Below, one piece after another: positions 2,738 through 55,370 of a stretch of DNA of 64,000 nt. Each line of letters starts with the position of its first letter. Within the stretch, counting starts at the first letter, position 1. The notes beneath the pieces were generated by a model that ran no database searches, had not been told where the DNA came from, and saw nothing but the letters and a program-made list of their open reading frames with translations. Source of the DNA: Bacteroidetes bacterium HGW-Bacteroidetes-4 (GTDB taxonomy: Bacteria > Bacteroidota > Bacteroidia > Bacteroidales > SZUA-534); NCBI GenBank assembly GCA_002840905.1, contig PHDD01000003.1, forward strand, positions 74,376 through 138,375. Direction: 5' to 3'. Made by a program: the position numbers and the translations under genes.

Positions 2738-3757
2738 ATGATTCAAAAAATAAAAGAACTGCTGGAACAAACCGAGTCATTTACCATTTCATCACTCGAT
2801 GAACTGGAGCAGTTCCGTTTAAAATACCTGAGCAAGAAAGGCGAGATAGCACAGTTATTTGCCGATTTTAAAAATGTACCCGCTGAATTGAAAAAAGAGG
2901 TGGGTTTTGAAATTAACCGGCTTAAGCAAAAAGCTCAGGAAAAATATGACCAATTAAAGGAGTCGTTCGAAGAAACGTCGGCAAGTTCCGATGGCAGTGA
3001 TTTAACCCGCCCGGGCGAGCCTCTTGAGTTAGGTTCTCGCCATCCAATTTCCCTGGTAAGGAACGAAATCATCAGCATTTTTAACCGCCTCGGATTTACC
3101 GTTGCCGAAGGCCCTGAAATTGAAGACGATTGGCACGTTTTTACCGCATTGAATTTTCCGCCGGAACATCCGGCACGCGATATGCAGGATACCTTTTTTA
3201 TCGATAAAGAAAACGAAATTGTTTTACGTACGCACACATCCAGCGTACAGGTTCGTGTAATGGAAAACACCCAACCTCCCATTCGGAGCATTTTCCCGGG
3301 AAGGGTATTTCGCAACGAGGCCATTTCGGCCCGGGCGCATTGTATCTTTCATCAGGTTGAAGGGCTTTATGTGGCCGAGAATGTTTCGTTTGCCGACTTA
3401 AAACAAACCCTGCTTTACTTTGCTAAAGAAATGTTTGGTGAGAAAACACAAATCCGCTTGCGGCCTTCTTATTTCCCTTTTACCGAACCTTCGGCCGAGC
3501 TCGATGTGTCGTGTTCTATTTGTGGAGGAAAAGGTTGTAATGTTTGTAAATATACCGGTTGGCTCGAGATACTGGGTTGTGGAATGGTCGATCCCAATGT
3601 GTTGGAACGTTGTGGCATAGATAATGAAAAATATACCGGTTTTGCCTTTGGAATGGGCATAGAGCGTATAGCCATGCTTAAATACCAGGTGAAAGATTTA
3701 CGGCTTTATTTTGAAAACGACATCCGGTTTTTACAGCAGTTTAAATCGGCTTATTAA
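2738..3757 (+). CDS. pheS: Phenylalanine--tRNA ligase alpha subunit
   Basis: PheS forms the catalytic half of the alpha2beta2 phenylalanyl-tRNA synthetase in the cytoplasm. The 339-residue product has the N-terminal coiled coil that contacts tRNA (about residues 1-85) and a class II synthetase core: ELGSRHPIS, HPARDMQDTFFI, RTHTSSVQ, the motif 2 region RVFRNEAISARAHCIFHQ, and motif 3 GFAFGMGIERIAML near the C terminus. Length is typical. The frame also has a GTG at 2732, but the ATG at 2738 lies at a natural distance from the strong promoter and is preferred. pheT is not adjacent. A strong terminator follows directly. Confidence 0.97.
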   Translation: MIQKIKELLEQTESFTISSLDELEQFRLKYLSKKGEIAQLFADFKNVPAELKKEVGFEINRLKQKAQEKYDQLKESFEETSASSDGSDLTRPGEPLELGSRHPISLVRNEIISIFNRLGFTVAEGPEIEDDWHVFTALNFPPEHPARDMQDTFFIDKENEIVLRTHTSSVQVRVMENTQPPIRSIFPGRVFRNEAISARAHCIFHQVEGLYVAENVSFADLKQTLLYFAKEMFGEKTQIRLRPSYFPFTEPSAELDVSCSICGGKGCNVCKYTGWLEILGCGMVDPNVLERCGIDNEKYTGFAFGMGIERIAMLKYQVKDLRLYFENDIRFLQQFKSAY

Positions 3758-35381: not shown

Positions 35382-36341
35382 ATGCGGCATAATTACATAG
35401 CAATCATACTATTTCTTATAATTTCCTTGAAAGGGTTCGGTCAAAATGCGAATTATTCAAGTTTGTACATGTTTAACCAAATGTATTATAATCCGGGTTA
35501 TGCAGGCGATGGAAACGACATTGAATTCAAAGGACTAATCCGGAATCAGTGGATGGGTTTCCCCGGGGCGCCTAATACCCAAACATTTAATATCGACGCT
35601 CCGTTTAAGCTTTTTCACCAGCAACACGGTGCCGCAATTTCAATTATTATTGACGAATTTGGAAATTTCAGAAACACTGGTTTAAATATTTCGTATGCAT
35701 ACAGACGTTCATTGATTCAGGGTGATTTGGGTATTGGTGTTGGCCTAAGTATGTTAAACCATGCTATTGACGGAGAGTGGATTAGAAACGAGGGGTCGGT
35801 TGATCCTTCCATACCGGAACCCGGAGCCACCGCACCTTTAATATTTGACCTGAACCTTGGATTGTATTATCGATCAGACAATTTATTTATGAGTGTTTCT
35901 ATGATGAATGCCATGAGTAGTCATGTAAAGTATATAAACGAAGGAGATGCAAACAATGTGTCGACCAACAACAGCACGTTTTTTGGTCGGCAGATTTTTT
36001 TTAGCACCGGCTACGATTACCAGTTGGCTAATCCTTTGTTTGCTATTCAGCCAGGAGCTTTTGTTGCTACTGATTTTGCATCAACTCAGGTTACTGTATC
36101 AGGAATCGTTACGTATAGCCGAAAAGTGTTTGCCGGGTTAAGCTATAAGCAAACCGATGCCGTAACCGTTTTAGCAGGTATTGATTTGCCAAGTGGAATT
36201 AATGTTGCCGTTTCCTATGGTTTAAATACTTCAAGGATAATAAGAAGTAGCACCGGTTCGTTTGAATTTATGGTGGGTTATTCGTTCAATTTAGATATTG
36301 ATAAAGATAACCGGAAGTTTAAAAGCGTGCGTTTTCTTTAA
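35382..36341 (+). CDS. porP: PorP/SprF-family T9SS outer-membrane protein
   Basis: A 319-residue protein with a signal peptide (about 1-20, IAIILFLIISLKGFGQ), then the family opening YMFNQMYYNPGYAGDGND and NQWMGFPGAPNTQTFNIDAPF, followed by barrel strands and an FEFMVGYSFNLDID end. PorP is an outer-membrane component needed for type IX secretion; in Porphyromonas gingivalis porP directly precedes porK-L-M-N, and the same order is seen here. A second paralogue sits after the giant adhesin at 54420. It probably starts the T9SS operon, since 60 bases separate it from gldK. Confidence 0.92.
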   Translation: MRHNYIAIILFLIISLKGFGQNANYSSLYMFNQMYYNPGYAGDGNDIEFKGLIRNQWMGFPGAPNTQTFNIDAPFKLFHQQHGAAISIIIDEFGNFRNTGLNISYAYRRSLIQGDLGIGVGLSMLNHAIDGEWIRNEGSVDPSIPEPGATAPLIFDLNLGLYYRSDNLFMSVSMMNAMSSHVKYINEGDANNVSTNNSTFFGRQIFFSTGYDYQLANPLFAIQPGAFVATDFASTQVTVSGIVTYSRKVFAGLSYKQTDAVTVLAGIDLPSGINVAVSYGLNTSRIIRSSTGSFEFMVGYSFNLDIDKDNRKFKSVRFL

Positions 36342-36401: not shown

Positions 36402-37778
36402 ATGAAAAATCTAGCAATTTTGAGTGTCGCCCTTTTAATTTTTGCCGGTTGTGCAAATTACGACAATGGAGAACTGGTTGGTGTTCAAGACAGAGCGTCA
36501 TGGTATAACGCTCCACCGCTCGGAATGGTTGTTGTTCCCAAAGGAAGTTTCCGTATGGGTCCTAACGATCAGGATGTTCCCTGGGCAAGCACTTCACAAT
36601 CAAAAAATGTTTCAATTGCTGCTTTCTATATGGATGAAACCGAAATAACCAATAACGAATACCGACAATTTGTTTTTTGGGTTAGAGATTCGTTGGCATA
36701 CCGTATGTTGGGCGAGCAAATTGATGAATACCTTATTTCTGAAGATCAATACGGAGAAGAGATTGACCCACCCTTCATTAACTGGAATCAGGAAATTATT
36801 TGGGACGATCAGGAGCAAAATGAAATTCTTGAAGACATGTTTTATCCTGAGCACGAGCGATTCTACCGTCAAAAAAATATCGATCCCCGTAAGTTAAACT
36901 ACGAGTATTTTTGGATTGATTACAAACAAGCCGCTCAAAAATTTACCTTTGAAAACGAAAACCGGCGCCATTACAATTATAAAACTGGTCAGTACGATGG
37001 TGAAATTGTAGATTTAGACGGGAAAAGAGTTCCGATAAAAGACAGGAGTTCTTTTATAATGCGAGATATGGTCAATGTTTATCCTGACACATTGTGTTGG
37101 ATAAGTGATTTTTCATACAGCTATAACGAGCCCATGGCAAACATGTATTTTTGGCATGCTGCTTACGATAATTACCCGGTAGTTGGCGTAAGTTGGAAAC
37201 AAGCTTCTGCATTTGCAATTTGGAGAACATCCTATATGAATGCTTATTTGTCTTCGGTAGGTCAGTTTTTTGTACAGGATTATCGTTTACCGATGGAATC
37301 GGAGTGGGAATATGCTTCACGGGGAGGACTTGATTTAGCTGTTTATCCTTGGGGAGGACCATATACCAGAAACGACAAAGGTTGTTTCCTGGCTAACTTT
37401 AAACCCATGCGCGGCGATTATGTTGACGATGGTGGTTTACACACGGTAGAGGTTGCAATTTATGAAGCTAACGATTACGGTTTGTACGATATGGCCGGGA
37501 ATGTTGCTGAATGGACAGCAAACGCTTTCGATGAAAGTGCCTATAGTTTTACCCACGATATGAATCCTTATTATAAATACCACGCTTTATCAGATGATCC
37601 TCCAGCAATGAAACGAAAAGTTGTTCGTGGTGGTTCATGGAAAGATATCGGTTACTATTTACAGAATGCCGTACGTACTTACGAATACCAGGATACAGCA
37701 AAAGCGTATATTGGATTTCGTTGTGTACGTTCTTATATGGGCCCCGATGAAACCGGAGCCAAATCGAATGTTTATTAG
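36402..37778 (+). CDS. gldK: GldK/PorK, T9SS outer-membrane ring lipoprotein
   Basis: GldK (PorK) forms, with GldN, the ring on the periplasmic face of the outer membrane in T9SS. The 458-residue protein is a lipoprotein (lipobox FAGC, C17) with a formylglycine-generating-enzyme/sulfatase-modifying-factor fold: MVVVPKGSFRMGPNDQDVP, YPVVGVSWKQASAFAIW, LPMESEWEYASRGG, YDMAGNVAEWTANAF and VVRGGSWKD. The enzymatic cysteines of true FGE are not expected in GldK. It is the first of the tight gldK-L-M-N run. Confidence 0.95.
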   Translation: MKNLAILSVALLIFAGCANYDNGELVGVQDRASWYNAPPLGMVVVPKGSFRMGPNDQDVPWASTSQSKNVSIAAFYMDETEITNNEYRQFVFWVRDSLAYRMLGEQIDEYLISEDQYGEEIDPPFINWNQEIIWDDQEQNEILEDMFYPEHERFYRQKNIDPRKLNYEYFWIDYKQAAQKFTFENENRRHYNYKTGQYDGEIVDLDGKRVPIKDRSSFIMRDMVNVYPDTLCWISDFSYSYNEPMANMYFWHAAYDNYPVVGVSWKQASAFAIWRTSYMNAYLSSVGQFFVQDYRLPMESEWEYASRGGLDLAVYPWGGPYTRNDKGCFLANFKPMRGDYVDDGGLHTVEVAIYEANDYGLYDMAGNVAEWTANAFDESAYSFTHDMNPYYKYHALSDDPPAMKRKVVRGGSWKDIGYYLQNAVRTYEYQDTAKAYIGFRCVRSYMGPDETGAKSNVY

Positions 37779-37800
37779 TGTATCATAAATAGCTTAAGCC

Positions 37801-38877
37801 ATGTTAAGTATAAACGAATTAGTAGAGAGTAAAGGCTATAAAAACTTTATGAAGTACGTGTATGGATGGGGAGCCTCTGTCGTATTGGTTGGAGCGCTTT
37901 TTAAAATCCTTCACTTACCAGGTTCTTCACTGATGCTTACCGTAGGTTTGTTGGTTGAAGCCCTTATTTTCTTTTTCTCCGGATTTGAACCTTTGCACGA
38001 GGAATTAGACTGGACCTTGGTTTATCCTGAACTAGCAGGATTATCCGATGAATTTGATGACGACGAAGCTCAGGTAAGAAGTTTTGAACGCGTACACGAT
38101 ATTCCTCAGGTAATTGGTGTTCCTGTTGGAGGCGGAGGCGGAGGTTTTGTTGGCGGCACCTTTGAAGGAACCCCGGCCCAAAGTCATGCTGGTGGAGCTG
38201 TTTCAGGAGGCGGTGGCGTTAGTTATGTGGGTGGAGGAAGTCCTTCAGCATTGGCACGATTCGATGAACTATTGGAAAAAGCAGAAATTGGACCCGAAAT
38301 ATTCGATAAACTAGGGCAGGGTTTGAATAATCTAAGCAAAACGGCCGAAAAATTAGCTGATATTTCAGAGGCAGGTGTAGCTGTAAATGCTTTTACAACT
38401 TCAATGAAATCAGCTTCGGAGTCAGTTGGTAAATTCGACGAGGTTTATCAAAAATCAGGAGAAGCATTAAAGGAATCGGTGAATAATTTATCGGAATCGT
38501 ACGTTCACACCGCTCAAACATTTAAAGAGTCGAGCAATCAGCTTACTGAAGCTTATGCAAATTTTGCTAATAAATTAACCGCCGAAATTGATAATGTTGG
38601 AACCGAAGGATCGAATTATACACAAAAACTTGGGTCATTAAATTCGAATCTATCAGCGTTGAATGCTGTTTACGAACTTCAGGTTCAAAACATGAACCAG
38701 CAAATTAATGCCTCGCAGGAGTACTTTAAAGAAATGAATCAGGTTGTGGGGAACATTCACCAAACGGTTGATCACACCAATAAATTAAATCAAGGCGTAG
38801 TTGAACTTGAGAAAAACATAGCCTCCCTAAACAGTATATATGGGAATATGTTATCGTCAGTAAACCTTAACAAGTAA
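37801..38877 (+). CDS. gldL: GldL/PorL, T9SS inner-membrane motor subunit
   Basis: GldL with GldM is the proton-driven inner-membrane motor of T9SS. The 358-residue protein has two transmembrane helices (about 19-37 and 43-60); K35 lies at the end of the first and E53 within the second (LLVEALIFFF), the kind of charged residues the family uses for proton flow. A glycine-rich linker follows at 106-147. After it comes a long Ala/Ser/Asn-rich helical region (about 150-358) of coiled-coil character. It is longer than the roughly 215-residue Flavobacterium johnsoniae GldL and somewhat longer than PorL. gldM begins 18 bases later. Confidence 0.95.
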   Translation: MLSINELVESKGYKNFMKYVYGWGASVVLVGALFKILHLPGSSLMLTVGLLVEALIFFFSGFEPLHEELDWTLVYPELAGLSDEFDDDEAQVRSFERVHDIPQVIGVPVGGGGGGFVGGTFEGTPAQSHAGGAVSGGGGVSYVGGGSPSALARFDELLEKAEIGPEIFDKLGQGLNNLSKTAEKLADISEAGVAVNAFTTSMKSASESVGKFDEVYQKSGEALKESVNNLSESYVHTAQTFKESSNQLTEAYANFANKLTAEIDNVGTEGSNYTQKLGSLNSNLSALNAVYELQVQNMNQQINASQEYFKEMNQVVGNIHQTVDHTNKLNQGVVELEKNIASLNSIYGNMLSSVNLNK

Positions 38878-38895
38878 CATAGAATCAGTTGATAT

Positions 38896-40506
38896 ATGGG
38901 TCACGGTAAGGAAACCCCCAGGCAAAAGATGATAGGTCTGATGTACCTATTCCTGACAGCTTTGATGGCATTAAACGTGTCGAAAGATGTTTTGAACTCG
39001 TTTATACTCGTGGGTGAAAGTCTGGAAAAGACAATTGTAAATTACAAATCGAAAAATGACAAGCTTTATGAGGAATTTGCCAAACAACATGCAATAAACC
39101 CCGATAAAGTAGGACAATGGAAAACCTTATCGGATGAGGTACAAAAAAATGCAAACGTTTTGTTCGAGATGCTGGAGGGTCATAAAATTGGTTTGGCAAA
39201 ATATGCTGAGGGAGAAGAAACACCTGCTGTTGTGAATGGAAAGTTTGATATAAACCTATTAGAGCAAAAAGACAATATTGATAAAGGGGGTGAGTATTTT
39301 GGAGAGAAGGGAAAAAAACACGGAGTTGCGATTCGCGAAGGCATTAACGAATACCGCGAATTATTGTTGAAGATTGTTCCTCCAAACGAAACCGAGTTAA
39401 TTTCAAACATTGAAAAAACCCTTGACACACACGACCGTCCCGGAAAAGAAGGAGAATCACCTCATAGTTGGGTAAGTGTTACCTTTGAATATATTCCACT
39501 TATTGCCGATTTTGTAATGTTAACAAAATTGCAAACCGACGTTAAAAACATGGAAACCGACGTGGTTAATTTTTTATTTAACCAAATAACCGCCGGTGAC
39601 TTTAAAGTTAATGCCATGGAAGCAACCGTTATTCCTAACTCAAGTTATGTGATGCGGGGAGGTGAATACAATGCCAAGGTTTTTCTTGCCGCTTATGATT
39701 CTACTCAGGCTCCACGAATTCTAATTGGTGATTATCGGGAAACCAGCGAGGGCAAATACGAAATGTTAGGAGCTTACGATTCGTTGCCGGTAAAGCAGGG
39801 AAAAGGAATTTATAAAAAAACAGCCACATCGGTTGGTGATAAAAAGTGGGGAGGCCTCATTGTGGTTAAATCACCCGATGGTCAAGAAGCCATGTATCCA
39901 TTCAAGGTTGATTATCAGGTTGCAGAACCGAATTTGGTTGTTTCTCCTACTAAAATGAACGTGTTTTACTATGGAATCGAAAACCCGGTGGCAATTTCTG
40001 TTCCCGGTATACCTTCCGATAAAATTATTCCAACGATTCCATCGGGAGCAACCATTCGTAAAGTAAAAGATGGTTACGAAGTTAAACCTACCAAAAGGAA
40101 TGGGACAGTTGCCGTTCAGGTTTTTGCCGAAATTGACGGAGCCCGTAAATCGATGGGTAGTATGGAATTTCGTATCAGAACCATTCCATCTCCGGTAGCA
40201 AAAGTTATGGGGCAGGCAAGCGGTTCTATTTCTAAAGCTATGTTAAGCAATGCACCTGGAGTCTATGCTGAACTGGAAGACTTTGTTTTTGACTTAAAGT
40301 TTGTTATAACCCAGTTTACCCTTGTTTCGCAAGATGGTATTTATACCAAAGAACTTAATGTTAAAGGAAATTCATTCTCGAAAGAACAACAAGATGCAAT
40401 AAAAGGAGCAAAAACTGGCTCGCGTATTACCATTGAAAATATTGAAGCACGAGGACCAGACGGGCAGGTTAAACCGTTAGCTCCCATTGTATTTAAATTA
40501 AAATAA
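38896..40506 (+). CDS. gldM: GldM/PorM, T9SS periplasm-spanning motor subunit
   Basis: GldM inserts one helix in the inner membrane next to GldL and spans the periplasm to the GldK/GldN ring, passing motor torque outward. The 536-residue product has a short cytoplasmic start with the family motif RQKMIGLMYLFLTALMALNVS (helix about 12-28), a helical first periplasmic domain (about 35-225), then successive beta domains (about 230-536; for example GGLIVVKSPDGQEAMYPFKV). Length is typical (about 515-540). It is in the gldK-L-M-N operon. Confidence 0.96.
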   Translation: MGHGKETPRQKMIGLMYLFLTALMALNVSKDVLNSFILVGESLEKTIVNYKSKNDKLYEEFAKQHAINPDKVGQWKTLSDEVQKNANVLFEMLEGHKIGLAKYAEGEETPAVVNGKFDINLLEQKDNIDKGGEYFGEKGKKHGVAIREGINEYRELLLKIVPPNETELISNIEKTLDTHDRPGKEGESPHSWVSVTFEYIPLIADFVMLTKLQTDVKNMETDVVNFLFNQITAGDFKVNAMEATVIPNSSYVMRGGEYNAKVFLAAYDSTQAPRILIGDYRETSEGKYEMLGAYDSLPVKQGKGIYKKTATSVGDKKWGGLIVVKSPDGQEAMYPFKVDYQVAEPNLVVSPTKMNVFYYGIENPVAISVPGIPSDKIIPTIPSGATIRKVKDGYEVKPTKRNGTVAVQVFAEIDGARKSMGSMEFRIRTIPSPVAKVMGQASGSISKAMLSNAPGVYAELEDFVFDLKFVITQFTLVSQDGIYTKELNVKGNSFSKEQQDAIKGAKTGSRITIENIEARGPDGQVKPLAPIVFKLK

Positions 40507-40518
40507 AAAAAAAATGAT

Positions 40519-41379
40519 ATGAAGAAGTTTATTGTAGTTTCATTTATCGCATTTGCTTTTATTTGTGCTCCAAACCAGGAAAGTCAGGCACAAGTATTGG
40601 ATGGCATTTATGTAAAAGAGCATGTACCTGCCAGAAAACCTGCACCCTATAAATTTTTACGTGAAAGCGATGTAATGTGGTCAAAGCGTGTTTGGCGGGT
40701 AATCGATCTTCGCGAAAAAATTAATCATCCTTTGTATTATCCAACTACTCAGATTGGCGACCGAATGAGTTTGGTCGATTTAATGATTTGGGGCATCAAC
40801 AACGAAGGGATTACTCCTTACGCTACTGATGATGACCGCTTTACTCAGCCCATTACCCGAAGCCAGATAGATGTGGCTTTTGGAGCTGTTCCAAAAACGA
40901 TTACATTTACCGACGAGAATGGAAATGAAGTTTCAAAAACCATTACTGAAGAGAAAAACACTTCCGAAGTAAAACAATTTATTGTAAAAGAAGATTGGTT
41001 TTTTGATCGCCAACATTCCATAATGGATGCCCGCATTATAGGGTTATGTCCTGTTCGCTGGTATACCGTAGAAAGCCAGACCGGTGATGTTGACGAAGAT
41101 GCCACCATAAGAATTCAGCAGGTGTTCTGGATATATTTTCCCGAAGCCCGGCGAATTTTTTCCAATCACGAGGTGTTTAATCAGTTTAATGATGCTGAAC
41201 GCAGAACTTTTGATGACATATTCTTTAAAAGAAAATTTAACAGCTTTATTGTTCGCGAATCGAACGTTCAAGACGATAGGGGTATTAGTGAATATACACT
41301 GGGCTTGCAAAGCCTGCTTGAGGCAGAGCGCATAAAAAAACGCATTTCTGATTACGAACAGGATTTATGGAACTACTAA
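40519..41379 (+). CDS. gldN: GldN/PorN, T9SS ring protein
   Basis: GldN (PorN) is a periplasmic protein that binds GldK in the T9SS outer-membrane ring and contacts GldM. The 286-residue product has a signal peptide (about 1-25, ending ESQAQ) and the family features SDVMWSKRVWRVIDLREKIN, NHPLYYP, VKEDWFFDRQHS, CPVRWYTVES and VFWIYFPEARRIF. It ends the operon 10 bases before a strong terminator. Confidence 0.95.
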   Translation: MKKFIVVSFIAFAFICAPNQESQAQVLDGIYVKEHVPARKPAPYKFLRESDVMWSKRVWRVIDLREKINHPLYYPTTQIGDRMSLVDLMIWGINNEGITPYATDDDRFTQPITRSQIDVAFGAVPKTITFTDENGNEVSKTITEEKNTSEVKQFIVKEDWFFDRQHSIMDARIIGLCPVRWYTVESQTGDVDEDATIRIQQVFWIYFPEARRIFSNHEVFNQFNDAERRTFDDIFFKRKFNSFIVRESNVQDDRGISEYTLGLQSLLEAERIKKRISDYEQDLWNY

Positions 41380-44455: not shown

Positions 44456-47400
44456 ATGAGGAAGCCGATACTTTTAATTATCCTGTTAAGTATATTTTTT
44501 ACCCGGTTAGAGGCACAAGAAGCCCGTTTTTGGGTAAATGGTTCTGGTAACTGGCACGACACATCACACTGGTCAACCGTCAGTGGTGGAGATGCCGGAG
44601 CCAGTGTTCCAACTGCAGAAAACCCGGTGTTTTTTGATGATAATTCCGTTATCGGCAATCAAATACAGGTTTTAATTAAACAGGAAGCATATACCAATCA
44701 CCTGAATATTAACACCGCAAAAGTTGTTTTAAAGGGGAAAGCCCCGCTTACTATATCAGGTTCCGTATCGGTGAACCCTAATGTTGACTTGTCTAAATAC
44801 AAAGGCGATATTGCTTTTAATTCAAAGCAAAACACTACTATACAGATGTCCAATGAGCTAAACAGCAATTTGGTTTTTAATGGTTCAGGGGTTTTTAATG
44901 TTAAAGAAAGTATAAATACCCGCAAAGGAATATTAGTTAAACAAGGTGAAATAAACGCCAGCGGTATTCAAATATACAGCAGTTCGATAGTAAAAGAAGG
45001 AAATGCTGCATCAAAAATTAACCTGGAAAATGCTGAGGTTAATGTAAAGGATTGGAATATGTTGAATCAAAGCAATCTGGAGTTGCTAACTGAAAACTCA
45101 AGAATTTATGTACCCAACATAAAAAAAGATTTTACGCCAGGAAATTATAGTTATAATCTAGTGGGAGCCAGTTCAAGTAAAGCTATTGGTACTATAACCG
45201 TTACCATTACCGATGCTTTATGTTCGCCCGGAACCGATCCGGTTGGTGGTGATCCCAAAGAAAAAGGAACATTAAATGTTTTGGTAAGTCCGGCAGGTAA
45301 TTATTACATTACCGTTTTCAGTCAGGGCGACGGTTTGGAAAAAGGCCGTGCCTTTGGAAACAACATTGATTTTACCCTTCCTGTCGGAACATATCTGGTA
45401 CAGGGAAGTGAAACCGGATACAATCAAAATTATGCCACTGCAGGCGAAAATATAATAGGTTATCCTCCCGCTTTTAGTGTGGCTATCAGTGTTGAAAACG
45501 ATGTAAGCTGTTTTGGCGGAGATGACCTGCAATTGCGTGCCGACGCTACCGGCGGAACCAATCCCATAAGTTCTTACGATTGGGAAAACAATACTGCCAA
45601 TGAAGGAGTGATATTTTATACAGGGCAAATTACCAATGCCGATTTGGGCGAAGGATATTATATTGTTTACGCCAACGATGCCAACGGATGCCAGGCATCC
45701 AATTATTTTGAGTATTACCCCTCTTTTCCACAATTTGATGACTATACCACGGGTCCTAATCAAATTGGAGTATCGGGAATAATTACTACAGCTTCCTGTG
45801 CCTCAGGTACCACCGGCGTTATTGATGTGGAAACTACCACTGGAGGAACTCCCAATATGGGAATGTATCCCACAACGGGCTACGGATATTTTGCTTCAAC
45901 TAATGGAGCCTATAATCCGGTTCCTGGTGATTTTACCGATGGAAATGTTCTTTCCGGACTTGCTGCCGGAACGTATTATCTTTGGATAATTGATGGAAAC
46001 GCTTGTATTGAAGAGCACAACTCAACAATTAGTGTAGCATCTGTTCCTGCTCCAACAGCCGATGCCGGAACAGATGCTGAAGTTTGCGACGGAGATTCGT
46101 TCGATTTAAGTGGAGCAAGTGCCACCAATGCAGATACTTACTTATGGACTATTACAGCAGGCGGTACCGGAACCTTTAGTCCAAGTAATACCGCTTTAAA
46201 TCCTACATTTACTCCAACCGGAGGTGTGGGAACTTATACCTTGCAATTACAAACATCTCAATCCTCAGGAGCCTGCCCTCCGGCAACCAATAGCATGGAT
46301 TTGGATGTAATACCCAATCCGGTGGTGAATGCAGGAACCGATGCAGATATTTGTGGCAGTTCGTATACCATTGCCGACGCAAGTAGCGACGGAACCACGC
46401 ATTTATGGACCGTAGTTGCCGGAAATGCAGCCAATGTTATCTTTACGCCAAACAATACCGTAGTAAACCCACAAATTGATGTTACTGCTTTTGGAACTTA
46501 TACCCTTCAATTGGAATCGACCAATGGAACTTTGGTATCATGCAGTAGCAATGCTACTGTTGATCTGACTTTTGTCGATAATCCAACCGCTGATGCCGGA
46601 ACCGATGCTGAGGTTTGCAATGGAAATACATACGCTTTAACCGGAGCAAGTGCCACCAATGCCGACACCTATTTATGGACCATTACAGCAGGTGGCACCG
46701 GAACTTTTAGCCCAAGTAATACAGCATTAAACCCAACATTTACGCCAACCGGAGGTGTTGGAACCTATACTTTACAATTGCTAACTTCACAATCTTCTGG
46801 TACTTGTCCGCCGGCTACAAATTCAATGGATTTAAGTGTTCTGGCCATTCCGGTTGTTGATGCAGGAAATGACATGACCACCTGCGGAACTTCCTACACC
46901 CTAGCCGATGCCAGCAGCGATGGGTCTTCTCATTTATGGACCGTAGTTGCCGGAAATGCAGCCAATGTAAGCTTTGCGCCAAACAATACCGTGGTAAACC
47001 CCCAAATTAATGTTACTGCTTTTGGAACTTATACCCTTCAATTGGAATCGACCAATGGAACTTTGGTGTCATGCAGTAGCAGTGCTACGGTTGATCTCAC
47101 TTTTGTTGATAATCCAACAGCCGATGCCGGAATTGATGCTGAAGTTTGCGATGGAGCTACTTATGATTTATCCGGAGCAAGTGCAACTAATTCCGATACT
47201 TATTTATGGACCATTACCGCCGGAGGTACAGGAACATTTAGCCCAAATAATACCGTCTTAAATCCAACATTTACACCTACCGGTGGCGTGGGAACCTATA
47301 CGCTTCAACTGAGAGCATCCCAATCGGCAGGTACTTGCCCGCCGGTAACTAACAGCATGAATCTGGACGTAATATCACTTCCTGTTGTTAATGCTGGAAC

Positions 47401-50400
47401 CGATACTGATATTTGTGGCACGTCCTATACCATTGCTGATGCCAGCAGTAATGGAACCACGCATTTATGGACCGTAGTTGCCGGAAATGCAGCCAATGTT
47501 TCCTTTACACCAAACAATACGGTTGTAAATCCACAAATTGATGTTACCGCTTTTGGTACTTATACATTACAGTTAGCATCGAGCAATGGAACTTCAGTTT
47601 CATGCAGCAGCAGCGCAACCGTCAACCTTAATTTTGTTGATAACCCAACCGCCGATGCCGGAGCCGATGCTGAGGTCTGTGACGGAGCAAGTTTTGATTT
47701 AACCGGAGCAAGTGCTACCAATGCCGACACCTATCTTTGGACCGTAACGCCCGTTGGCGGAGGAACTTTTAGTCCTAACAACACGGTTCTAAACCCAACT
47801 TTTACTCCGACAGCAGGAGTCGGAACTTACACATTGCAGTTACAGGCTTCACAGTCATCTGCAACCTGTCCTCCTGCAATTAACAGCATGGATTTGGATG
47901 TAATTGCCAATCCTGTGGTGAATGCCGGAGCCGATGCTGATGTTTGCGGAACCACTTACACTTTAGCAGATGCCAGTAGTACCGGAGCTTCACATGTTTG
48001 GAGCGTAGTAGTGGGAAATGCGGCAAACATTACTTTTACACCAAACAATACGGTAGTAAACCCACAAATTGATGTTACTGGTTTTGGTACCTATACTCTT
48101 CAGTTGGAATCGAGCAACGGAACATTGGTTACATGCAGCAGCAGCGCTACGGTAACTATTAATTTTCATGAATCTCCTTCAGTTAATGCGGGAGTTGATA
48201 ATACCGTTTGTTACGATGCCATTGACTATGAGTTGATTGATGCAATGGCATTAAACTATACAGCCATCTCATGGAAAAATCTGACATCGGGTGATGCTAC
48301 GGGTTTTGACGACGCCTTTGCTTTGAATCCTACCTATGCATTTTCAGCAACTGATAAAGTTCAGGGTTATGTCGATTTGGTACTAACCGCATCCAGTCTA
48401 TACTGTCCGGATGTTACGGATACCATTCGCGTGAATATTTCACCTGAAATGGTGGTATCAGTTGGTTCTGTATCACCTTATTTAATTGGAGCCAGTACAC
48501 AAATAAATGTTGCTTTCTGGGGCGAACATGAAAATATAGGACAGCTTGGATTTTATTTAGTAGCTCCCGATGGAACAACCAAAATTAGGCTGTACCAACA
48601 TAATTTGGATGGATCGGCTTGTATTTTCCCGATAAACCAGCAGTTTGACAGCCTGGCATTTTCAACGTCCAGTGCAACCAGTCTGGATTTCTGTGGATAC
48701 AATACTAATCCGGTTTTAAGTGGAAATTTTGATGCTGCCGAAGATTGGAGCAAAATATATACAATGGATCCGGCACAGGGAGGTTGGTCATTAATGATAA
48801 AGGATCGTACAACAGGAAAAACAGGAACCCTAAGCAGAGCAATGATATCTTTTACCGATATGAATATCCAGGGGATTATGCAAACCATTTTTTACGACTC
48901 GAAAGTCTTGAGTCCTGCTTCTCCGATTATCGATAAAGATTCAACCATATATTATGTCCCCATGGGCTTAAGAACCAGTTGTAATGGAGCTTGTGATGCC
49001 CGCGCCATTGTTTCTGTTATTGGAGGTACTCCTCCTTATGCCAGCTATGAATGGAGCACCGGTGATTCAGGTACTGAAGTTGATTTGTGTGGCGGCGACC
49101 ATACCGTTACAGTAACCGATGCCAATGGTTGTACCGCAATTGCCATGGTTGAAGTGCTGGAACCCGATCCCATTGAATTAGCTGTTGACTCAACAAACAT
49201 TGCCTGTTTTGGTGGTGCAAACGGAATGGTAAAAGTTACCCCATCGAATGGTGTGCCTCCTTACAATTACCTTTGGGACGATGCCAATGCTTCTACAACG
49301 GCTCAGGTAAATGGATTAACTGTCGGAACCTATACAGTAACAATTACTGACCAGAATTTATGTACTACAATTCGCAGCATTACTATTACCGAGCCTGCTT
49401 CTGCACTCGATCTAACTTATGTTGTGGATCCCACAGGTTGTAATACTTCAACCGGAACCATTACCCTATCGCCCAATGGAGGAACTCCATACATAGTGGG
49501 AGATGCTTACAATTATACCTGGGCACACGATGCTTTGCTAACCGGAAATATAGCTACCGGACTTGGTGTTGGCACCTACAATGTGTTAATTCAGGATTCC
49601 TTGGGTTGTATCCTCGATACCACCATTACCATGACAGATAACGGCGATATGGATATCACCGGATTTACTATGGTAAACAATGTGAGCTGTGCCGGAAGTT
49701 GCGATGCTGAAGTTCAGGTCGATTTTACCGGAGGAACTGGTGATTATACTTTCAACTGGAGTGGTGCGGGATTAACCGGAACCAATGTTTCGCTGCCAAA
49801 TGTTTGTGGCGATAGTACGTATTATGTTACAGTTACCGATGTTAACACTTCATGCAGCACCTCCGATTTCTTTAAAATTCCACAACCCGATTCACTAAAA
49901 GTCAATATTGTTTCGCAAACCGATGTACTTTGTTTTGGCGACAGTACAGGAACCGCTGAAGCAATTGGAATTGGAGGAACAGGAGCGTATTCTTATGCCT
50001 GGTTTACCACAACAAACGACACCTTAAGCCGGACAGCAACAGCCAATAACCTTCCTTATGGAAAAATATATATTGAAATTATAGATGCAAATCTTTGCTC
50101 TGTTATTGATAGTATCTTTATTAATCAACCAACAGAATTAACTGCAACAACTGCATCAACAAACACTTCATGTGGAGTTGCTACCGGTACCGTGTCAGTT
50201 ACTCCTGCCGGAGGCACGGCACCCTACACCTATTTGTGGGATGATGTCTCGAATGCAACAACAACACTGGTCGAAGATTTGCCGGTTGGAATTTATAATG
50301 TTACCATAACCGATTTTAATGGTTGTGAACTGCTTGAGTCGGTTTCAGTAATCGACGATTCCGATATGGTTATTAGCATTGATTATGTGGTTGATGTACT

Positions 50401-53400
50401 TTGTGCTGGTGAAGCTAGTGGTGAAATTAACATTAGTGTTACCGATGCTGTTGCGCCTGTCGCTTACAATTGGAGCAATGGTGAAATAACTGAAGACCTT
50501 ACCGATTTAGCAGCAGGAACTTACCGGGTTACTGTAACCGATGCGAACTTGTGTTCACGGGTGGCTGAGGTAGAAATTACTGAACCCGCATTTTTATCGG
50601 CTGCTGTAACCATAGTAAACCAACCACTTTGTTTTGGAGCAGCAGACGGAGAAGCCATGGTGATTCCTCAGGGTGGCGTGGCTCCTTATTCTTATCTATG
50701 GAGCAATGGACAAACCTCTGCAACAGCAACCAACCTGATGGCTGGAGTATATGAAGTTAGCCTTACCGATTTTAATGGTTGCGAAGCTACCGCAACAGTT
50801 ACTTTAACCGACCCAAATCCGGTAACTTTCGATTTTGAATTTACCCGCACCACCTGTGGCGACAGTGTTGGAACCATGAATGTGGCTAACCTTGCCGGTG
50901 GAACCGGTGCCGGAACCTATACCGTTTCATGGGCATCGCCCGACTGGGCTTCGTACCCGGCTCCCGACTCTTTAAATACCGAAAGCATAAGTAATTTATG
51001 GGTAGCCTCTTATGTAGCTATAGTAACCGATGCCAATGGTTGCGAGTTCCGCGACTCCATGAACCTGACCGACGATTCAGACTTGACAATTATTGTTGAT
51101 TCTATGACAATGGTAAGCTGTAATGGCGGAACCAACGGAGCCATTCTGGTAAGTGCCGTAAATGGTACCGAACCTTATACTTACCTTTGGGACTCGGGCG
51201 ACACTGATTCCCTGCTTAATGATGCGGTTGCCGGAACCTATCATTTGCGAGTTACCGATGTGAACTTATGCCGTCGCGATACCGCTTTTGTGATTACCGA
51301 ACCCGATGCTTTGGACAATACCTTTGTATTTACACAACCCATTATTTGCCATGGCGACACGGAAGCCAGCTTTAATGCCGAGATTAGTGGCGGTGTAGCT
51401 CCTTATACCTATTTATGGGAAAACAGTGCAGGCGACAACCTGGGCCAGACAGCCGCGTTGGAAAATGTAACCGCCGACAGGTATTACCTAACTGTTGTTG
51501 ATGCCAACAATTGTATTTATGAAGATAGTATAGAGCTAATTGAGCCCGACGACGCACTTACTTTAAGCATTTCAATAACCGAAACCCAGTGTACCGACTC
51601 TACAGGAACAGCTACAGCCACAGTAAACGGTGGAGTAAAACCTTATACCTATAGTTGGTATCAACTTTCGAACCCGGCCACGGCTTTAACCGGCCAGGGA
51701 ACCATCGCCCTTTCTGACCTTTGGGTCGATGTGTTTGTTGTAGAGGTTAGCGATGCTTTAGGCTGCATGGTTACCGATACTTTCGAAATGAAAGACGTGA
51801 GCGATATTGATTTTACCTTGGTTGTGCATAATCAGGTTTCTTGTGTCGATAAATGTGATGCCAGGGCTGAGGTTGTTTTACCAACAGGTGGAACTCAACT
51901 CCCAACAGGCTTTGGTTATAATGTTATCTGGAGCAACGGGGAAACAACTCCTGAGGCCGATAGTCTATGTTTGGGAAATAACCTGGTTCGCATCATCGAT
52001 GCCAACGGTTGTCAGGCGGTAAAATCGGTAACCATTACCGACAATGAAGCTTTAAAAGTTAAGATTATCCATTTTAACGATATTAGCCAGGGAGGCGAAG
52101 ATTGTAACGGTTATGCTGAAGCTGTGGTCTCGGGCGGAACGGAACCCTACACTTACCTTTGGTCTACTGCTGATAATAATACATCCGATAATATACCTGA
52201 TTTATGTGAAGGTTGGTACTACCTAACCGTAACCGACGCGTCTGTAGATCCTGTTTGTGAGGTAATTGACAGTGTATTTATCAGCGATGATCCTTTACGT
52301 TACGACACCTTGCTGCTTCAGCACATCACTTGCTATGGAGATAGTTCAGGAGCAATCTCCGTTCAGGGAATGGGAGGCTATCCTGATGGTTACAACTATT
52401 TCTGGGCAAACGAGAACTGGAGCTCTTATCCGGCTTATGATTCAACAGGTAATTCACTTACAAATCTGGTTGCGGGAACCTATTTCTTAACCATAACAAA
52501 TCGCAGCGAACTGGATACCCTGGTTGCCAGTATTGAAATTACGCAACCCGAGCCCTTTATTCCTGATTATACCATTAGTCCGACCAATTGTAGTGATTCG
52601 TCGGGTGTAATATCCGTGAATTTAGCGCTTATTCAGGGAGGAACGGCTCCATTTACCTTTGAGTGGGCTCACGAGTCCTGGAGCTCTTATCCAGCAGCCG
52701 ATAGTTCCGGATTAACCTTAAGTAACCTTTGGGTCGATGATTATTATGTTACCATTACCGATGCCGGTGGATGTACTTATACAGATACTGTGAGCATGGA
52801 GGATAATTCACCCTTTGTAATTAATCCGGTTTTATCTCCAATACGTTGTTTTAGCTGGACCAATGGTGGCATTGATGTAAATCCTACAAATGGTATTGAG
52901 CCTTACGTTTTTACATGGGACAGCGGTCAGACAACACAGGAAATTACTGGCTTGGGAGCTGGTTTATATTTTGTTACGGTAACTGACGATGATGGCTGTG
53001 TACGCTCAAGAAGTATTGAACTTACACAACCCGATTCCATAACCTTTACGTTGAAAGACACTTTACCCTTGCTTTGTTATACCGACTGTGATGGTGGCAT
53101 TACCATCGATAATATTCAGGGAGGTAATGCAGGTGTTTGGAATTATATTATAAGAGAAAGCGGTCGAATTGTTAGCGAAGGAACCGATGCAATTATTAAT
53201 AGCCTGTGTCCGGGCGATTACCAGATACGGGTAGAAGATGAACTGGGATGTTTAAGTGAAACTTATCCGTTTGTATACTTATCGCGTTCTCCACAAATGT
53301 TACCGGAGTTTGAGATTATCGATACCGCCAGTTGTAATAATAATACCAGCGATGGAATTCTTGCTGTTAATGTAAAAATGGGGTATTTTGATCAGATTTC

Positions 53401-54418
53401 TCCAATCTTAGTAACTGAGACCATTACATATAGCTACCGTTGGGATGGAAATCCGGCATTAGCGAACGACACCTTAACTCAAGCTTTAGGTGGCTCGCAT
53501 TCTGTCCGTATTACCGACAATCTGGGTTGTCAAAATAGCTTTAACATTATAATGCCTTCAAAAACCGTAATCTGGATTGATGATGCCTATATTATAGGTT
53601 CTCAGTTGAAAGAAGATTATTTCTGTCCTGGAGATACAGTGCAATTGTTTGCCAGTGTGGTTGAGGCCGATTCTATTCTATGGAGTAACTCTGATTATAT
53701 AATTGGCGATTCCACAGGACCAATGGTTACTGTTTTGGCAGCTACCAACAAGATTTTCTATGTTACTGCATACAATAACAATTGTTACGACGAGGATACA
53801 ATTATTGTTGGCCGCTATGTAATAGAACCATTAATTGCATCAGTTGATGGCGATAGCATAGTTGCAGCCGGTAGCGAAGTGAAGTTGTTTGCGAACAGTC
53901 CTGAGGTGAGTTATGCTAAAGAGGATGATTTTACCACCACGCACAGCTATACCTGGGCATCAGACTTTGCCGGTGCTACCTGGTTACCAGCACCTCCCGA
54001 TACCATTGCACCAACACTTATAGCTGGTGAATCGGGAATAATAACGGTTTACGATACCATAAAAATCTTTAACCCGACCTATTCGAACCAGGTTTGTATA
54101 GTGTCCGACACCTTAAATTTAAAAGTATTGTCGAGTGTTGAAGCATCAAGCGGATTTACACCCAATGGGGATGGTAATTATGACACCTGGGATATTTCGG
54201 GCATTAATGGATGGGCCGAAGTAGAGGTTCAGATTTTTAACCGCTGGGGCGGATTGATTTGGGAACACAGCGGAGCCTATGATGGCAATAATAAGTGGGA
54301 TGGAACCAATGCCAAAGGAAATCCGGTTCCGTCGGGCACCTATTATTATGTAATAACTTATGGAAATAATCAGGGAGTAAGCAAAACATTAACCGGACCT
54401 GTAACAATATTGAGATAA
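44456..54418 (+). CDS. Giant SprB-like adhesin with T9SS type B sorting domain
   Basis: A 3,320-residue secreted surface protein. Order: signal peptide (1-21, ending LEAQ); a head with FWVNGSGNWHDTSHWS (about 24-260); two early SprB-like modules (about 350-530); four 177-residue repeats of paired PKD-like domains (533-1240) and a ninth single one (1241-1330). Next come a P-domain-like segment (about 1331-1472; LGFYLVAPDGTTKIRL, GGWSLMIKDRTTGKTGTLS) and about 19 SprB repeats (1509 to about 3038; PYTYLWDDVSNATTT, AGTYRVTVTDANLC types). The C-terminal gliding-motility/type B domain is at 3232-3320 (SGFTPNGDGNYDTWDI, VQIFNRWGGLIWE, VPSGTYYYVITY). SprB of Flavobacterium johnsoniae is the mobile gliding adhesin exported by T9SS. 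The SprF-family gene starts one base later. Adhesion is inferred; ligand unknown. Confidence 0.93.
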   Translation: MRKPILLIILLSIFFTRLEAQEARFWVNGSGNWHDTSHWSTVSGGDAGASVPTAENPVFFDDNSVIGNQIQVLIKQEAYTNHLNINTAKVVLKGKAPLTISGSVSVNPNVDLSKYKGDIAFNSKQNTTIQMSNELNSNLVFNGSGVFNVKESINTRKGILVKQGEINASGIQIYSSSIVKEGNAASKINLENAEVNVKDWNMLNQSNLELLTENSRIYVPNIKKDFTPGNYSYNLVGASSSKAIGTITVTITDALCSPGTDPVGGDPKEKGTLNVLVSPAGNYYITVFSQGDGLEKGRAFGNNIDFTLPVGTYLVQGSETGYNQNYATAGENIIGYPPAFSVAISVENDVSCFGGDDLQLRADATGGTNPISSYDWENNTANEGVIFYTGQITNADLGEGYYIVYANDANGCQASNYFEYYPSFPQFDDYTTGPNQIGVSGIITTASCASGTTGVIDVETTTGGTPNMGMYPTTGYGYFASTNGAYNPVPGDFTDGNVLSGLAAGTYYLWIIDGNACIEEHNSTISVASVPAPTADAGTDAEVCDGDSFDLSGASATNADTYLWTITAGGTGTFSPSNTALNPTFTPTGGVGTYTLQLQTSQSSGACPPATNSMDLDVIPNPVVNAGTDADICGSSYTIADASSDGTTHLWTVVAGNAANVIFTPNNTVVNPQIDVTAFGTYTLQLESTNGTLVSCSSNATVDLTFVDNPTADAGTDAEVCNGNTYALTGASATNADTYLWTITAGGTGTFSPSNTALNPTFTPTGGVGTYTLQLLTSQSSGTCPPATNSMDLSVLAIPVVDAGNDMTTCGTSYTLADASSDGSSHLWTVVAGNAANVSFAPNNTVVNPQINVTAFGTYTLQLESTNGTLVSCSSSATVDLTFVDNPTADAGIDAEVCDGATYDLSGASATNSDTYLWTITAGGTGTFSPNNTVLNPTFTPTGGVGTYTLQLRASQSAGTCPPVTNSMNLDVISLPVVNAGTDTDICGTSYTIADASSNGTTHLWTVVAGNAANVSFTPNNTVVNPQIDVTAFGTYTLQLASSNGTSVSCSSSATVNLNFVDNPTADAGADAEVCDGASFDLTGASATNADTYLWTVTPVGGGTFSPNNTVLNPTFTPTAGVGTYTLQLQASQSSATCPPAINSMDLDVIANPVVNAGADADVCGTTYTLADASSTGASHVWSVVVGNAANITFTPNNTVVNPQIDVTGFGTYTLQLESSNGTLVTCSSSATVTINFHESPSVNAGVDNTVCYDAIDYELIDAMALNYTAISWKNLTSGDATGFDDAFALNPTYAFSATDKVQGYVDLVLTASSLYCPDVTDTIRVNISPEMVVSVGSVSPYLIGASTQINVAFWGEHENIGQLGFYLVAPDGTTKIRLYQHNLDGSACIFPINQQFDSLAFSTSSATSLDFCGYNTNPVLSGNFDAAEDWSKIYTMDPAQGGWSLMIKDRTTGKTGTLSRAMISFTDMNIQGIMQTIFYDSKVLSPASPIIDKDSTIYYVPMGLRTSCNGACDARAIVSVIGGTPPYASYEWSTGDSGTEVDLCGGDHTVTVTDANGCTAIAMVEVLEPDPIELAVDSTNIACFGGANGMVKVTPSNGVPPYNYLWDDANASTTAQVNGLTVGTYTVTITDQNLCTTIRSITITEPASALDLTYVVDPTGCNTSTGTITLSPNGGTPYIVGDAYNYTWAHDALLTGNIATGLGVGTYNVLIQDSLGCILDTTITMTDNGDMDITGFTMVNNVSCAGSCDAEVQVDFTGGTGDYTFNWSGAGLTGTNVSLPNVCGDSTYYVTVTDVNTSCSTSDFFKIPQPDSLKVNIVSQTDVLCFGDSTGTAEAIGIGGTGAYSYAWFTTTNDTLSRTATANNLPYGKIYIEIIDANLCSVIDSIFINQPTELTATTASTNTSCGVATGTVSVTPAGGTAPYTYLWDDVSNATTTLVEDLPVGIYNVTITDFNGCELLESVSVIDDSDMVISIDYVVDVLCAGEASGEINISVTDAVAPVAYNWSNGEITEDLTDLAAGTYRVTVTDANLCSRVAEVEITEPAFLSAAVTIVNQPLCFGAADGEAMVIPQGGVAPYSYLWSNGQTSATATNLMAGVYEVSLTDFNGCEATATVTLTDPNPVTFDFEFTRTTCGDSVGTMNVANLAGGTGAGTYTVSWASPDWASYPAPDSLNTESISNLWVASYVAIVTDANGCEFRDSMNLTDDSDLTIIVDSMTMVSCNGGTNGAILVSAVNGTEPYTYLWDSGDTDSLLNDAVAGTYHLRVTDVNLCRRDTAFVITEPDALDNTFVFTQPIICHGDTEASFNAEISGGVAPYTYLWENSAGDNLGQTAALENVTADRYYLTVVDANNCIYEDSIELIEPDDALTLSISITETQCTDSTGTATATVNGGVKPYTYSWYQLSNPATALTGQGTIALSDLWVDVFVVEVSDALGCMVTDTFEMKDVSDIDFTLVVHNQVSCVDKCDARAEVVLPTGGTQLPTGFGYNVIWSNGETTPEADSLCLGNNLVRIIDANGCQAVKSVTITDNEALKVKIIHFNDISQGGEDCNGYAEAVVSGGTEPYTYLWSTADNNTSDNIPDLCEGWYYLTVTDASVDPVCEVIDSVFISDDPLRYDTLLLQHITCYGDSSGAISVQGMGGYPDGYNYFWANENWSSYPAYDSTGNSLTNLVAGTYFLTITNRSELDTLVASIEITQPEPFIPDYTISPTNCSDSSGVISVNLALIQGGTAPFTFEWAHESWSSYPAADSSGLTLSNLWVDDYYVTITDAGGCTYTDTVSMEDNSPFVINPVLSPIRCFSWTNGGIDVNPTNGIEPYVFTWDSGQTTQEITGLGAGLYFVTVTDDDGCVRSRSIELTQPDSITFTLKDTLPLLCYTDCDGGITIDNIQGGNAGVWNYIIRESGRIVSEGTDAIINSLCPGDYQIRVEDELGCLSETYPFVYLSRSPQMLPEFEIIDTASCNNNTSDGILAVNVKMGYFDQISPILVTETITYSYRWDGNPALANDTLTQALGGSHSVRITDNLGCQNSFNIIMPSKTVIWIDDAYIIGSQLKEDYFCPGDTVQLFASVVEADSILWSNSDYIIGDSTGPMVTVLAATNKIFYVTAYNNNCYDEDTIIVGRYVIEPLIASVDGDSIVAAGSEVKLFANSPEVSYAKEDDFTTTHSYTWASDFAGATWLPAPPDTIAPTLIAGESGIITVYDTIKIFNPTYSNQVCIVSDTLNLKVLSSVEASSGFTPNGDGNYDTWDISGINGWAEVEVQIFNRWGGLIWEHSGAYDGNNKWDGTNAKGNPVPSGTYYYVITYGNNQGVSKTLTGPVTILR
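46052..48175 (+). repeat. Four tandem 531-bp repeats inside the SprB-like gene
   Basis: Units start at 46052, 46583, 47114 and 47645, each exactly 531 bases (177 codons) apart; the next homologous domain starts at 48176. Each unit encodes two different PKD-like domains: one opening PTADAGTDAEVC, one opening NPVVNAGTDADICG. Some stretches are identical or nearly so between the first three units, such as the segment coding LWTVVAGNAANV, while the fourth has diverged more. Confidence 0.9.
48980..53570 (+). repeat. About 19 SprB-type repeat modules
   Basis: Degenerate protein-level repeats of about 70-90 residues, each starting with a cysteine motif (CFGGANG, CAGSCDA, CGVATGT and similar), then a GG-x-x-PY-x-Y-x-W core, then AGTY-x-VTVTD and a second cysteine. 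Nucleotide identity between modules is low, so these are old duplications compared with the 531-bp repeats. Confidence 0.85.
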
Positions 54419-54419
54419 T

Positions 54420-55370
54420 ATGAAGCGTACAATGAAAAAATACATCGGAATAGCATGGGCGCTCCTGCTTGCTGTGCAAGTGGGGCATGCGCAACCCATG
54501 TTTCAGTTTTCGCAATACATGTTTAACGATTATGCCATAAATCCTGCCATTGGCGGAACCAACGATTATTGGCAAATACGTTCCAATTACCGTTTACAGT
54601 ATGCCGGCTTAAACGATGGGCCACAAACATATATGCTGGGAGCCTATGGCCCGCACAAAACCATGCCAATGGGTTATGGGGGTTTTATTTTTAACGACAT
54701 TGTTGGGCCCATTTCTTATCTTGGGATGTATGGCTCATACGCCTATAACATTCAAATATCGGGCGACATCCGCTTGTCGATGGGTTTGCTCGCAGGTGTA
54801 GTTCAGCAAAAAATTGATATGGCAGCCATCTCGCCCGAAGATCCGGTATTTTTAGAAGCTACACCCAACAAGTTTATACCCGATGGAACCCTTGGGGTGT
54901 ATCTCTACACATCGCAGTATTTTTTTGGCGTAAGCATGAGCCACCTGTTTTTTAATAATATGTCGCTATTAAGTGAATACGACGAAGGATTTAACATAGC
55001 CGATGCCCGCTTAAAACCCTATTTCAACATTCAGGGAGGGTATAAATACAATATTGACCGGAATTTTGATTTGGAACCTTCAGTATTAATGAAAGCGTCG
55101 CCCAATTTTGATTTTATAACCGACATTAACATTCGCACCATTTACCAAAAAATGGTTTGGGGCGGATTGGGAGTTCGTTATAATTTTAAAAACATGGAAT
55201 CCATTATTGTTTTTCTGGGTTACAACTACAACGACATGATAAACATAGGATATTCCTACGATATTGGTTTATCAACGCTGGCAAAAACAACCTATGGGTC
55301 ACATGAGATAATGATTGGTGTTAAGTTTAACGATATCCGTAAATCAAAATCGAGAAGAAAAATACGTTAA
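54420..55370 (+). CDS. sprF: SprF/PorP-family outer-membrane partner of the SprB-like adhesin
   Basis: A 316-residue PorP/SprF protein with a signal peptide (about 5-24, IGIAWALLLAVQVGHAQ), the opening FQFSQYMFNDYAINPAIGGT and barrel strands ending EIMIGVKFND with a basic tail KSKSRRKIR. In Flavobacterium johnsoniae sprF follows sprB and is needed to export or anchor SprB. Here it starts one base after the adhesin stop codon, the same arrangement, so it is probably the dedicated partner of this type B cargo. It differs from the paralogue at 35382 that accompanies gldKLMN. Confidence 0.92.
   Translation: MKRTMKKYIGIAWALLLAVQVGHAQPMFQFSQYMFNDYAINPAIGGTNDYWQIRSNYRLQYAGLNDGPQTYMLGAYGPHKTMPMGYGGFIFNDIVGPISYLGMYGSYAYNIQISGDIRLSMGLLAGVVQQKIDMAAISPEDPVFLEATPNKFIPDGTLGVYLYTSQYFFGVSMSHLFFNNMSLLSEYDEGFNIADARLKPYFNIQGGYKYNIDRNFDLEPSVLMKASPNFDFITDINIRTIYQKMVWGGLGVRYNFKNMESIIVFLGYNYNDMINIGYSYDIGLSTLAKTTYGSHEIMIGVKFNDIRKSKSRRKIR

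Follow-up and report, generated by a model that had tools for sequence, protein, structure and literature searches.

SprB-type adhesins of Bacteroidota bear mechanical load at the cell surface, and in the open-licence literature, at the level of titles and abstracts, we found no publication that treats their SprB modules as other than alike. A long adhesin gene of Bacteroidetes bacterium HGW-Bacteroidetes-4 raises the question of whether the modules of one array are of different kinds, in what order they stand, and what this order may mean for the fibre. In the stretch of 64,000 nucleotides that was analysed (the window), an open reading frame on the + strand (44456..54418) encodes a surface protein of 3320 amino acids with an Ig/PKD-like N-terminal half, an SprB array and a type B T9SS sorting domain. 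The array of 19 modules (residues 1509-3040, 48980..53575, + strand; residue 1509 corresponds to nucleotide 48980 and residue 3038 ends at 53569) was recognised by the PF13573 (SprB) profile, which scored 261.3 bits against a gathering threshold of 28 with 14 significant stretches, and by its opening cysteines, from which the module bounds were set by eye. These cysteines are residues 1509, 1584, 1662, 1745, 1826, 1906, 1983, 2059, 2134 and 2222 for M01-M10, and 2298, 2379, 2463, 2550, 2626, 2712, 2798, 2874 and 2960 for M11-M19. Among named relatives of the array, the nearest three come from metagenome-assembled genomes labelled Marinilabiliales or Salinivirgaceae.

The first-pass annotation had proposed that a module with a special opening at cysteines 1662, 1906, 2134, 2379 and 2712 recurs every third module with one four-module step. 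This opening is indeed present, as C-x4-G, in M03 (residues 1662-1744, CNTSTGT ... TDNGD, 49439..49687), M06 (residues 1906-1982, CGVATGT ... IDDSD, 50171..50401), M09 (residues 2134-2221, CGDSVGT ... TDDSD, 50855..51118), M12 (residues 2379-2462, CTDSTGT ... KDVSD, 51590..51841) and M16 (residues 2712-2797, CSDSSGV ... EDNSP, 52589..52846), all on the + strand and hereafter called C modules, and the steps of 244, 228, 245 and 333 residues correspond to 3, 3, 3 and 4 modules. Most other modules open with C-x5-[GA] and end with [EQ]P, whereas the five end with D-x-[SG]. The acidic end D-x-[SG]-D ascribed to the special type is found in four of the five (DNGD, DDSD, DDSD and DVSD) and fails in M16 (DNSP). 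A second opening had been described as C-x-x-C, with the wrong spacing, and actually reads C-x3-C-[DN]-[AG] (CNGAC, CAGSC, CVDKC, CYTDC). Its placement at the starts of some triplets is supported, as C-x3-C openings are about twice as frequent after C modules (34/193) as after b modules (131/1435) in the order-level set, this count leaving out L194, L166, L181 and the class-level loci.

Grouping of every third module by sequence, which the first-pass annotation had named as its own point of refutation, was found in lag-3 identity, in profiles and in the rank of the C quartet given below. Within M01-M12, mean identity is 34.6% at lag 3 against 28.3% at lag 1 and 28.2% at lag 2, and the excess at lags divisible by 3 amounts to 5.4 points (p=6e-4 by shuffling of the module order); over all 19 modules, where the register slips after module 12, the same excess is weaker (p=0.02). 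By position alone, at least three of the four steps are equal to 3 in 159 of the 11,628 placements of five special modules among 19 (1.4%), and at least three share any one value in 972 placements (8.4%); the evidence against chance from the positions of the C modules alone is modest. Profiles were then trained on 42 C and 150 B modules from other SprB proteins, with the window protein, L063-L078, the class-level loci L138-L157, L194, L166 and L181 excluded from the training, and the C versus B scores of the five C modules were +8.5 to +12.8 bits against -30.5 to -1.1 for the other 14. With the same profiles, C was assigned at positions 3, 6, 9 and 12 of the orthologues L063, L064 and L065, and extra positive scores appeared at positions 16 and 17 of L065, in the second module of a second run of L063 and in the fourth module of the fragment L066. 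The period observation is confirmed, because the independently trained profiles pick exactly these five of the 19 modules and a lag-3 excess accompanies them. As far as sequence can tell, every third module of M01-M12, and then M16 after one four-module step, clearly forms a distinct class C.

To see in what the class differs, 191 C modules were compared with 1471 b modules. Divergence is highest in 14 columns (1, 2, 4, 5, 37, 38 and 58-65), which fall in the opening loop, in the E-F loop and in the exit strand with the joint, the opening and joint being divergent partly by definition of the class. The test on the next module (i+1), which is not circular, was made with b-labelled modules only, 139 after C versus 1106 after b in 82 proteins, under shuffling of labels within proteins; both of these tests left out L194, L166, L181, L073, L074, L075 and L077 and retained L106. 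After a C module, the strongest shifts of module i+1 are in the F-G loop (z 12.6), the B-C loop (z 10.6) and the B strand (z 10.3), and weaker ones are in C-E (5.7), the F strand (4.8), the E-F loop (3.5), the C strand (3.2) and the G strand (2.5), with no shift in the A-B loop (z -0.1) or the joint (z 1.1). In module i+2, no such shift was seen in the B-C loop (z -1.4) or the F-G loop (z -0.8), and the A-B loop gave z 3.0; ahead of a C module, the joint by which the preceding module runs into it gave z up to 5. In Ig domains, the C-terminal pole is made up of the A-B and E-F loops with the exit strand, and the opposite, N-terminal pole holds the B-C and F-G loops. Because the divergent places would be the two faces of one junction by this general topology, we infer that class C is a junction type, with a shorter opening loop, a D-x-[GS] joint that has no proline and altered loops in the next module.

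How the junctions may be held together is suggested by cysteines. In 2146 modules with both neighbours, loss of the opening cysteine (C1) in module i goes together with loss of the F-G ("NGC") cysteine in module i+1 (66 double losses, OR 18, p 1e-35; here and throughout, the p values do not come from independent events, because the proteins and modules are related by descent), and no association of the two cysteines was seen within the same module (11 double losses, OR 0.81, p 0.64). Among lags -4 to +4, only +1 was strong (OR 17, p 2e-38). Under a looser definition of the cysteines, which recovers openings missed in C modules, the odds ratio rose to 40 (p 7e-55), the double losses numbered 68 (34 loci) between modules and 4 (3 loci) within one, and a weak signal appeared between C1 of module i and the F-G cysteine of module i-2 (OR 2.7, p 7e-4). 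Shuffling within proteins gave 31.9 (sd 4.4) against 88 observed. No rows were dropped from these tests and near-duplicates were included, the exception being a clustering at 50% identity, by which 81 modules without the F-G cysteine fell into 51 clusters; 41 of the 51 follow a module without C1, against a base rate of 22%, and 11 of the 51 are without their own C1. As a positive control, the extra pair of A-type modules (C2 of C-x3-C and the E-F cysteine of L-C-x-G) pairs within the module with an odds ratio of 6127, and the odds ratio of about 10 at neighbouring modules arises because A-type modules cluster.

A bond within the module, from the opening cysteine to its own NGC cysteine, was rejected by these results. 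Covariation of C1 with the F-G cysteine of the next module, in place of the one in its own module, implies that disulfides link the modules in a chain; the joint presence and absence of the two cysteines, by which such a bond would be recognised, has odds ratios of 17-40. In the mechanism that we propose from this covariation, each junction would be closed by a disulfide from the opening cysteine of module i to the F-G cysteine of module i+1, the fibre would consist of a chain of stapled links that bear force, and every third link would have a different geometry, giving a super-repeat of about 240 residues. We regard it as fairly probable that the protein forms a T9SS-exported, Ig-like SprB fibre with disulfide staples between its modules, in which every third junction is of the C type.

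In the window, both candidate staple cysteines are present in 17 of the 18 junctions of M01-M19 (one cysteine scan flags M19 as without an opening cysteine, yet C2960 is present). The sole junction without either is that of M14 and M15 (52091..52588, + strand), which is also the place where the triplet register gains an extra module. A double-loss junction lies 775-954 residues from the end in 12 of the 18 family ORFs (the window, L065-L071, L073 and L076-L078), near-duplicates being included in this listing, and at 1527-1528 residues from the end in L072, L074 and L075, L074 having another at 1852. None was found in L063, which is unsegmented there, in L064, which is cut by the contig end, or in the second ORF of L067. 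The M14/M15 junction would thus be a softer point of the fibre, at a similar C-terminal distance in most of the family ORFs examined, and it is possible that the double-loss junction acts as a hinge. Twelve double-loss junctions were also observed in L160, a 63-module array with unclassified modules at regular places.

The interval between C modules was followed further in a sample of 103 sources, namely the window and 102 loci, which is not random because most loci were chosen for strong SprB matches. From the spacing and homogeneity tests, L194 was dropped since nearly all of its modules are C by motif, L166, L181, L073, L074, L075 and L077 were dropped as near-duplicates, and L106 was also left out; the last is an array of more than 30 modules, mostly with C-x3-C or similar openings, on a contig labelled as a Chryseobacterium gleum metagenome-assembled genome, a label that may be wrong. 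With profile labels in 42 order-level runs outside the orthologues (152 C modules, only runs with at least two), lag 4 is enriched (26 vs 10.9 expected), lags 2 and 3 occur about as often as expected (21 vs 17.9 and 13 vs 13.7), and lag 1 is avoided (13 vs 24.2). With motif labels, again in runs with at least two C modules, lag 3 is slightly raised (18 vs 11.7, P 0.04) and lag 1 is again avoided (4 vs 17.7). In the class-level sample, the spacing test of C modules shows nothing. A universal three-module pitch was rejected on the profile labels. A period near 3.4 was also dropped, as L084 and L086, two arrays that resemble each other, account for five of the nine spacings of seven and all four spacings of ten; their C spacings are 7, 10, 7, 10, 7 and 10, 19, 7, 10, 7, perhaps a 17-module super-block.

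On the other hand, successive C spacings in one protein are equal in 26 of 81 cases against 10.8 expected (33 proteins, orthologues included), and in 18 of 71 against 8.8 among non-orthologues (P 0.0012). Because spacings tend to be equal within a protein, many fibres have their own interval, which is three in the orthologue family of the window. The coupling of opening and joint is also seen at the order level outside the orthologues, where joints of C-x4-G modules are 47 D-x-[GSTA], 9 EP and 48 other, against 15, 480 and 152 for A and b modules. This coupling is absent from the class-level sample, with a D-x-G joint in 0 of 29 C-x4-G modules, and only 70 of 182 non-orthologue C modules have the D-x-[GSTA] joint in a count from which L194 and the class-level loci were left out. 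Tentatively, and with less confidence than we place in the stapled fibre of the window, SprB-type fibres in general might be disulfide daisy chains, in which the superhelical pitch follows from a second junction at a protein-specific interval (3 here; 4, 5 or 7/10 elsewhere) and a single conserved junction without a staple serves as a hinge.

With regard to the origin of the period, the array had been thought to have grown by triplication of a three-module block, which is not supported in that form. The 12-module region aligns end to end and module for module with L063, L064 and L065 at 61, 52 and 38% identity. Modules of the same position have 45.6% mean identity across species against 20-36% between positions, so the array was already in place when the four sampled orthologues diverged. 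A recent triplication was rejected by this positional alignment, by the mean lag-3 identity of 35% and by the lack of any direct DNA repeat over 46 bases within the array; TRF was uninformative here, its longest period being 500 bases against a unit of about 720. The array thus appears to be old and fixed among the sampled orthologues. It is rather unlikely, in our estimate, that the C period is a growth record with no structural role, left by several old rounds of copying of an ancestral A-B-C block whose copies then diverged. The lag-3 excess in M01-M12 would agree with such copying, as would the three-phase statistic, which has p=0.001 on the whole module and is still raised in the core (p=0.007). 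Equal successive spacings within a protein would be given by block copying, and the variation of the spacing between proteins also fits. Moreover, the N-terminal half of the same gene contains a true block repeat, four two-module units of 531 bases (residues ~540-1320, 46073..48415, + strand) that are 73-88% identical to the reference copies. However, the A and B phases, which a block should have left, are not separable (their split ranks 7/35), and the similarity of the C quartet drops from rank 3/495 on the whole module to rank 53/495 in the core without module edges, so that C modules seem distinct mainly at their edges. The array DNA, as said, holds no repeat over 46 bases. The opening loop, the joint and the loops of the next module change together, which is better explained by selection on the junction. 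As to the N-terminal Ig/PKD-like modules themselves, they alternate between two forms, and PF22352 scored 20.1 bits on them, below its cut-off of 27.

Two other explanations accept a role for the C modules and place it elsewhere. Regular spacing within a protein and avoidance of adjacent C modules, with either kind of label, would also be expected if C modules bear a surface for ligand binding or lateral assembly that points the same way along a twisted fibre, but the most divergent columns lie in loops and the joint at the pole that, by the inferred topology, faces the next module, and the interval varies between proteins; we consider this explanation improbable. Still further from likely is a Ca2+ site in the acidic D-x-[SG]-D joint, by which every third joint of the fibre would be made stiff or bent. 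Joints of cadherins are stiffened or bent by Ca2+ in such a way, and the ion site suggested earlier for the third module retains in its favour the two acidic residues in four of the five C joints of the window. It is only partly shared by relatives: among D-x-[GSTA] joints, the second acid is found in 9 of 18 from orthologues and in 10 of 70 from other proteins, 28 of these 70 having a proline no more than two residues away in its place (L194 and the class-level loci were left out of these counts too). The junction type with disulfide staples is the reading that we favour.

For M02-M07, AlphaFold2 with 13 aligned rows gave a mean pLDDT of 88.6 and a pTM of 0.51 with about six strands per module, and the modules are predicted to be Ig-like. 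Among known systems, proteins of the SprB family PF13573 share the profile match, the type B sorting domain and the adjacent PorP/SprF, but for the periodic C junctions and the covariation of cysteines between modules we found no published counterpart. Titles and abstracts of the open-licence literature mention no inter-module bond or junction class for SprB, and the accessible parts of PMC12635249, PMC9870892 and PMC8078820 contain neither periodic junctions nor inter-module cysteine covariation. The nearest structures are those of GhpA from Aureispira (PDB 9flp, 9flw, 9fly and others), which came first to third and fifth in Foldseek (best E 6.6e-16) and held the top eight places in VIA-align (Z 9.7-10.9, 16-20% identity), and which match the sequence profile at E 4e-56 in 15 stretches; in the stretch 1175-1502, cysteines can be read by eye at both positions. 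By fold alone GhpA is not singled out, because human Robo2 stands fourth in Foldseek (E 9.1e-12) and phage Hoc comes next after the GhpA rows of VIA-align, at Z 9.6. In 9flp, residues 1924-2554 and 3173-3750, profile hits of the same phase were observed at 1924, 2174 and 2423 and at 3173 and 3422, and this recurrence of 249-250 residues may be a three-module period, though tiling of the query can mimic it. The Ig-like and FN3 arrays of the titin I-band (3b43, Z 8.6) and fibronectin type III (1fnf, Z 8.8) were matched by fold, and their likeness is one of common arrangement only. Super-repeats are also a feature of titin.

Concerning export, the C-terminal end of the protein carries a CHU_C / T9SS type B sorting domain (residues 3230-3311, 54143..54388, + strand) with 72.8 bits against a cut-off of 27 for CHU_C and 59.3 against 35 for TIGR04131. 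One base after the adhesin ORF starts a gene for a PorP/SprF-family outer-membrane protein (54420..55370, + strand; 215 bits vs 90.55), and such a neighbour is a mark of type B substrates. The T9SS ring and motor genes gldK-gldL-gldM-gldN lie upstream of the adhesin gene (36402..41379, + strand), and a second PorP/SprF-family gene was noticed before them at 35382-36341. From family knowledge, export of the fibre by T9SS as a type B substrate is probable, with the adjacent PorP/SprF-like protein as its likely carrier and anchor. The repeat family, the type B export, the PorP/SprF neighbour, and GldJ (464.7 bits vs a cut-off of 458.2) and GldK (590.7 vs 350) in the genome are all shared with SprB/SprF of Flavobacterium johnsoniae. 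In the accessible text of PMC12635249, the C-tail of F. johnsoniae SprF is described to carry a Cys-x-Cys that is invariant in close homologues and bonds to GldK. Such a carrier tail would mark a gliding adhesin, but the protein encoded at 54420-55370 has no cysteine, so the adhesin is not called a gliding adhesin despite GldJ and GldK. Our best guess is that it is a static, load-bearing adhesive fibre.

Finally, staples between neighbouring modules, if the cysteines form them, would make the fibre a covalent chain and so account for its resistance to force. One would then have to ask at what point relative to T9SS export the bonds arise. The shape of the fibre can be approached directly through a junction class that returns at regular intervals. 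The sequence rule, which joins the opening cysteine of module i with the NGC cysteine of module i+1, should aid the reading of many large unannotated surface proteins.
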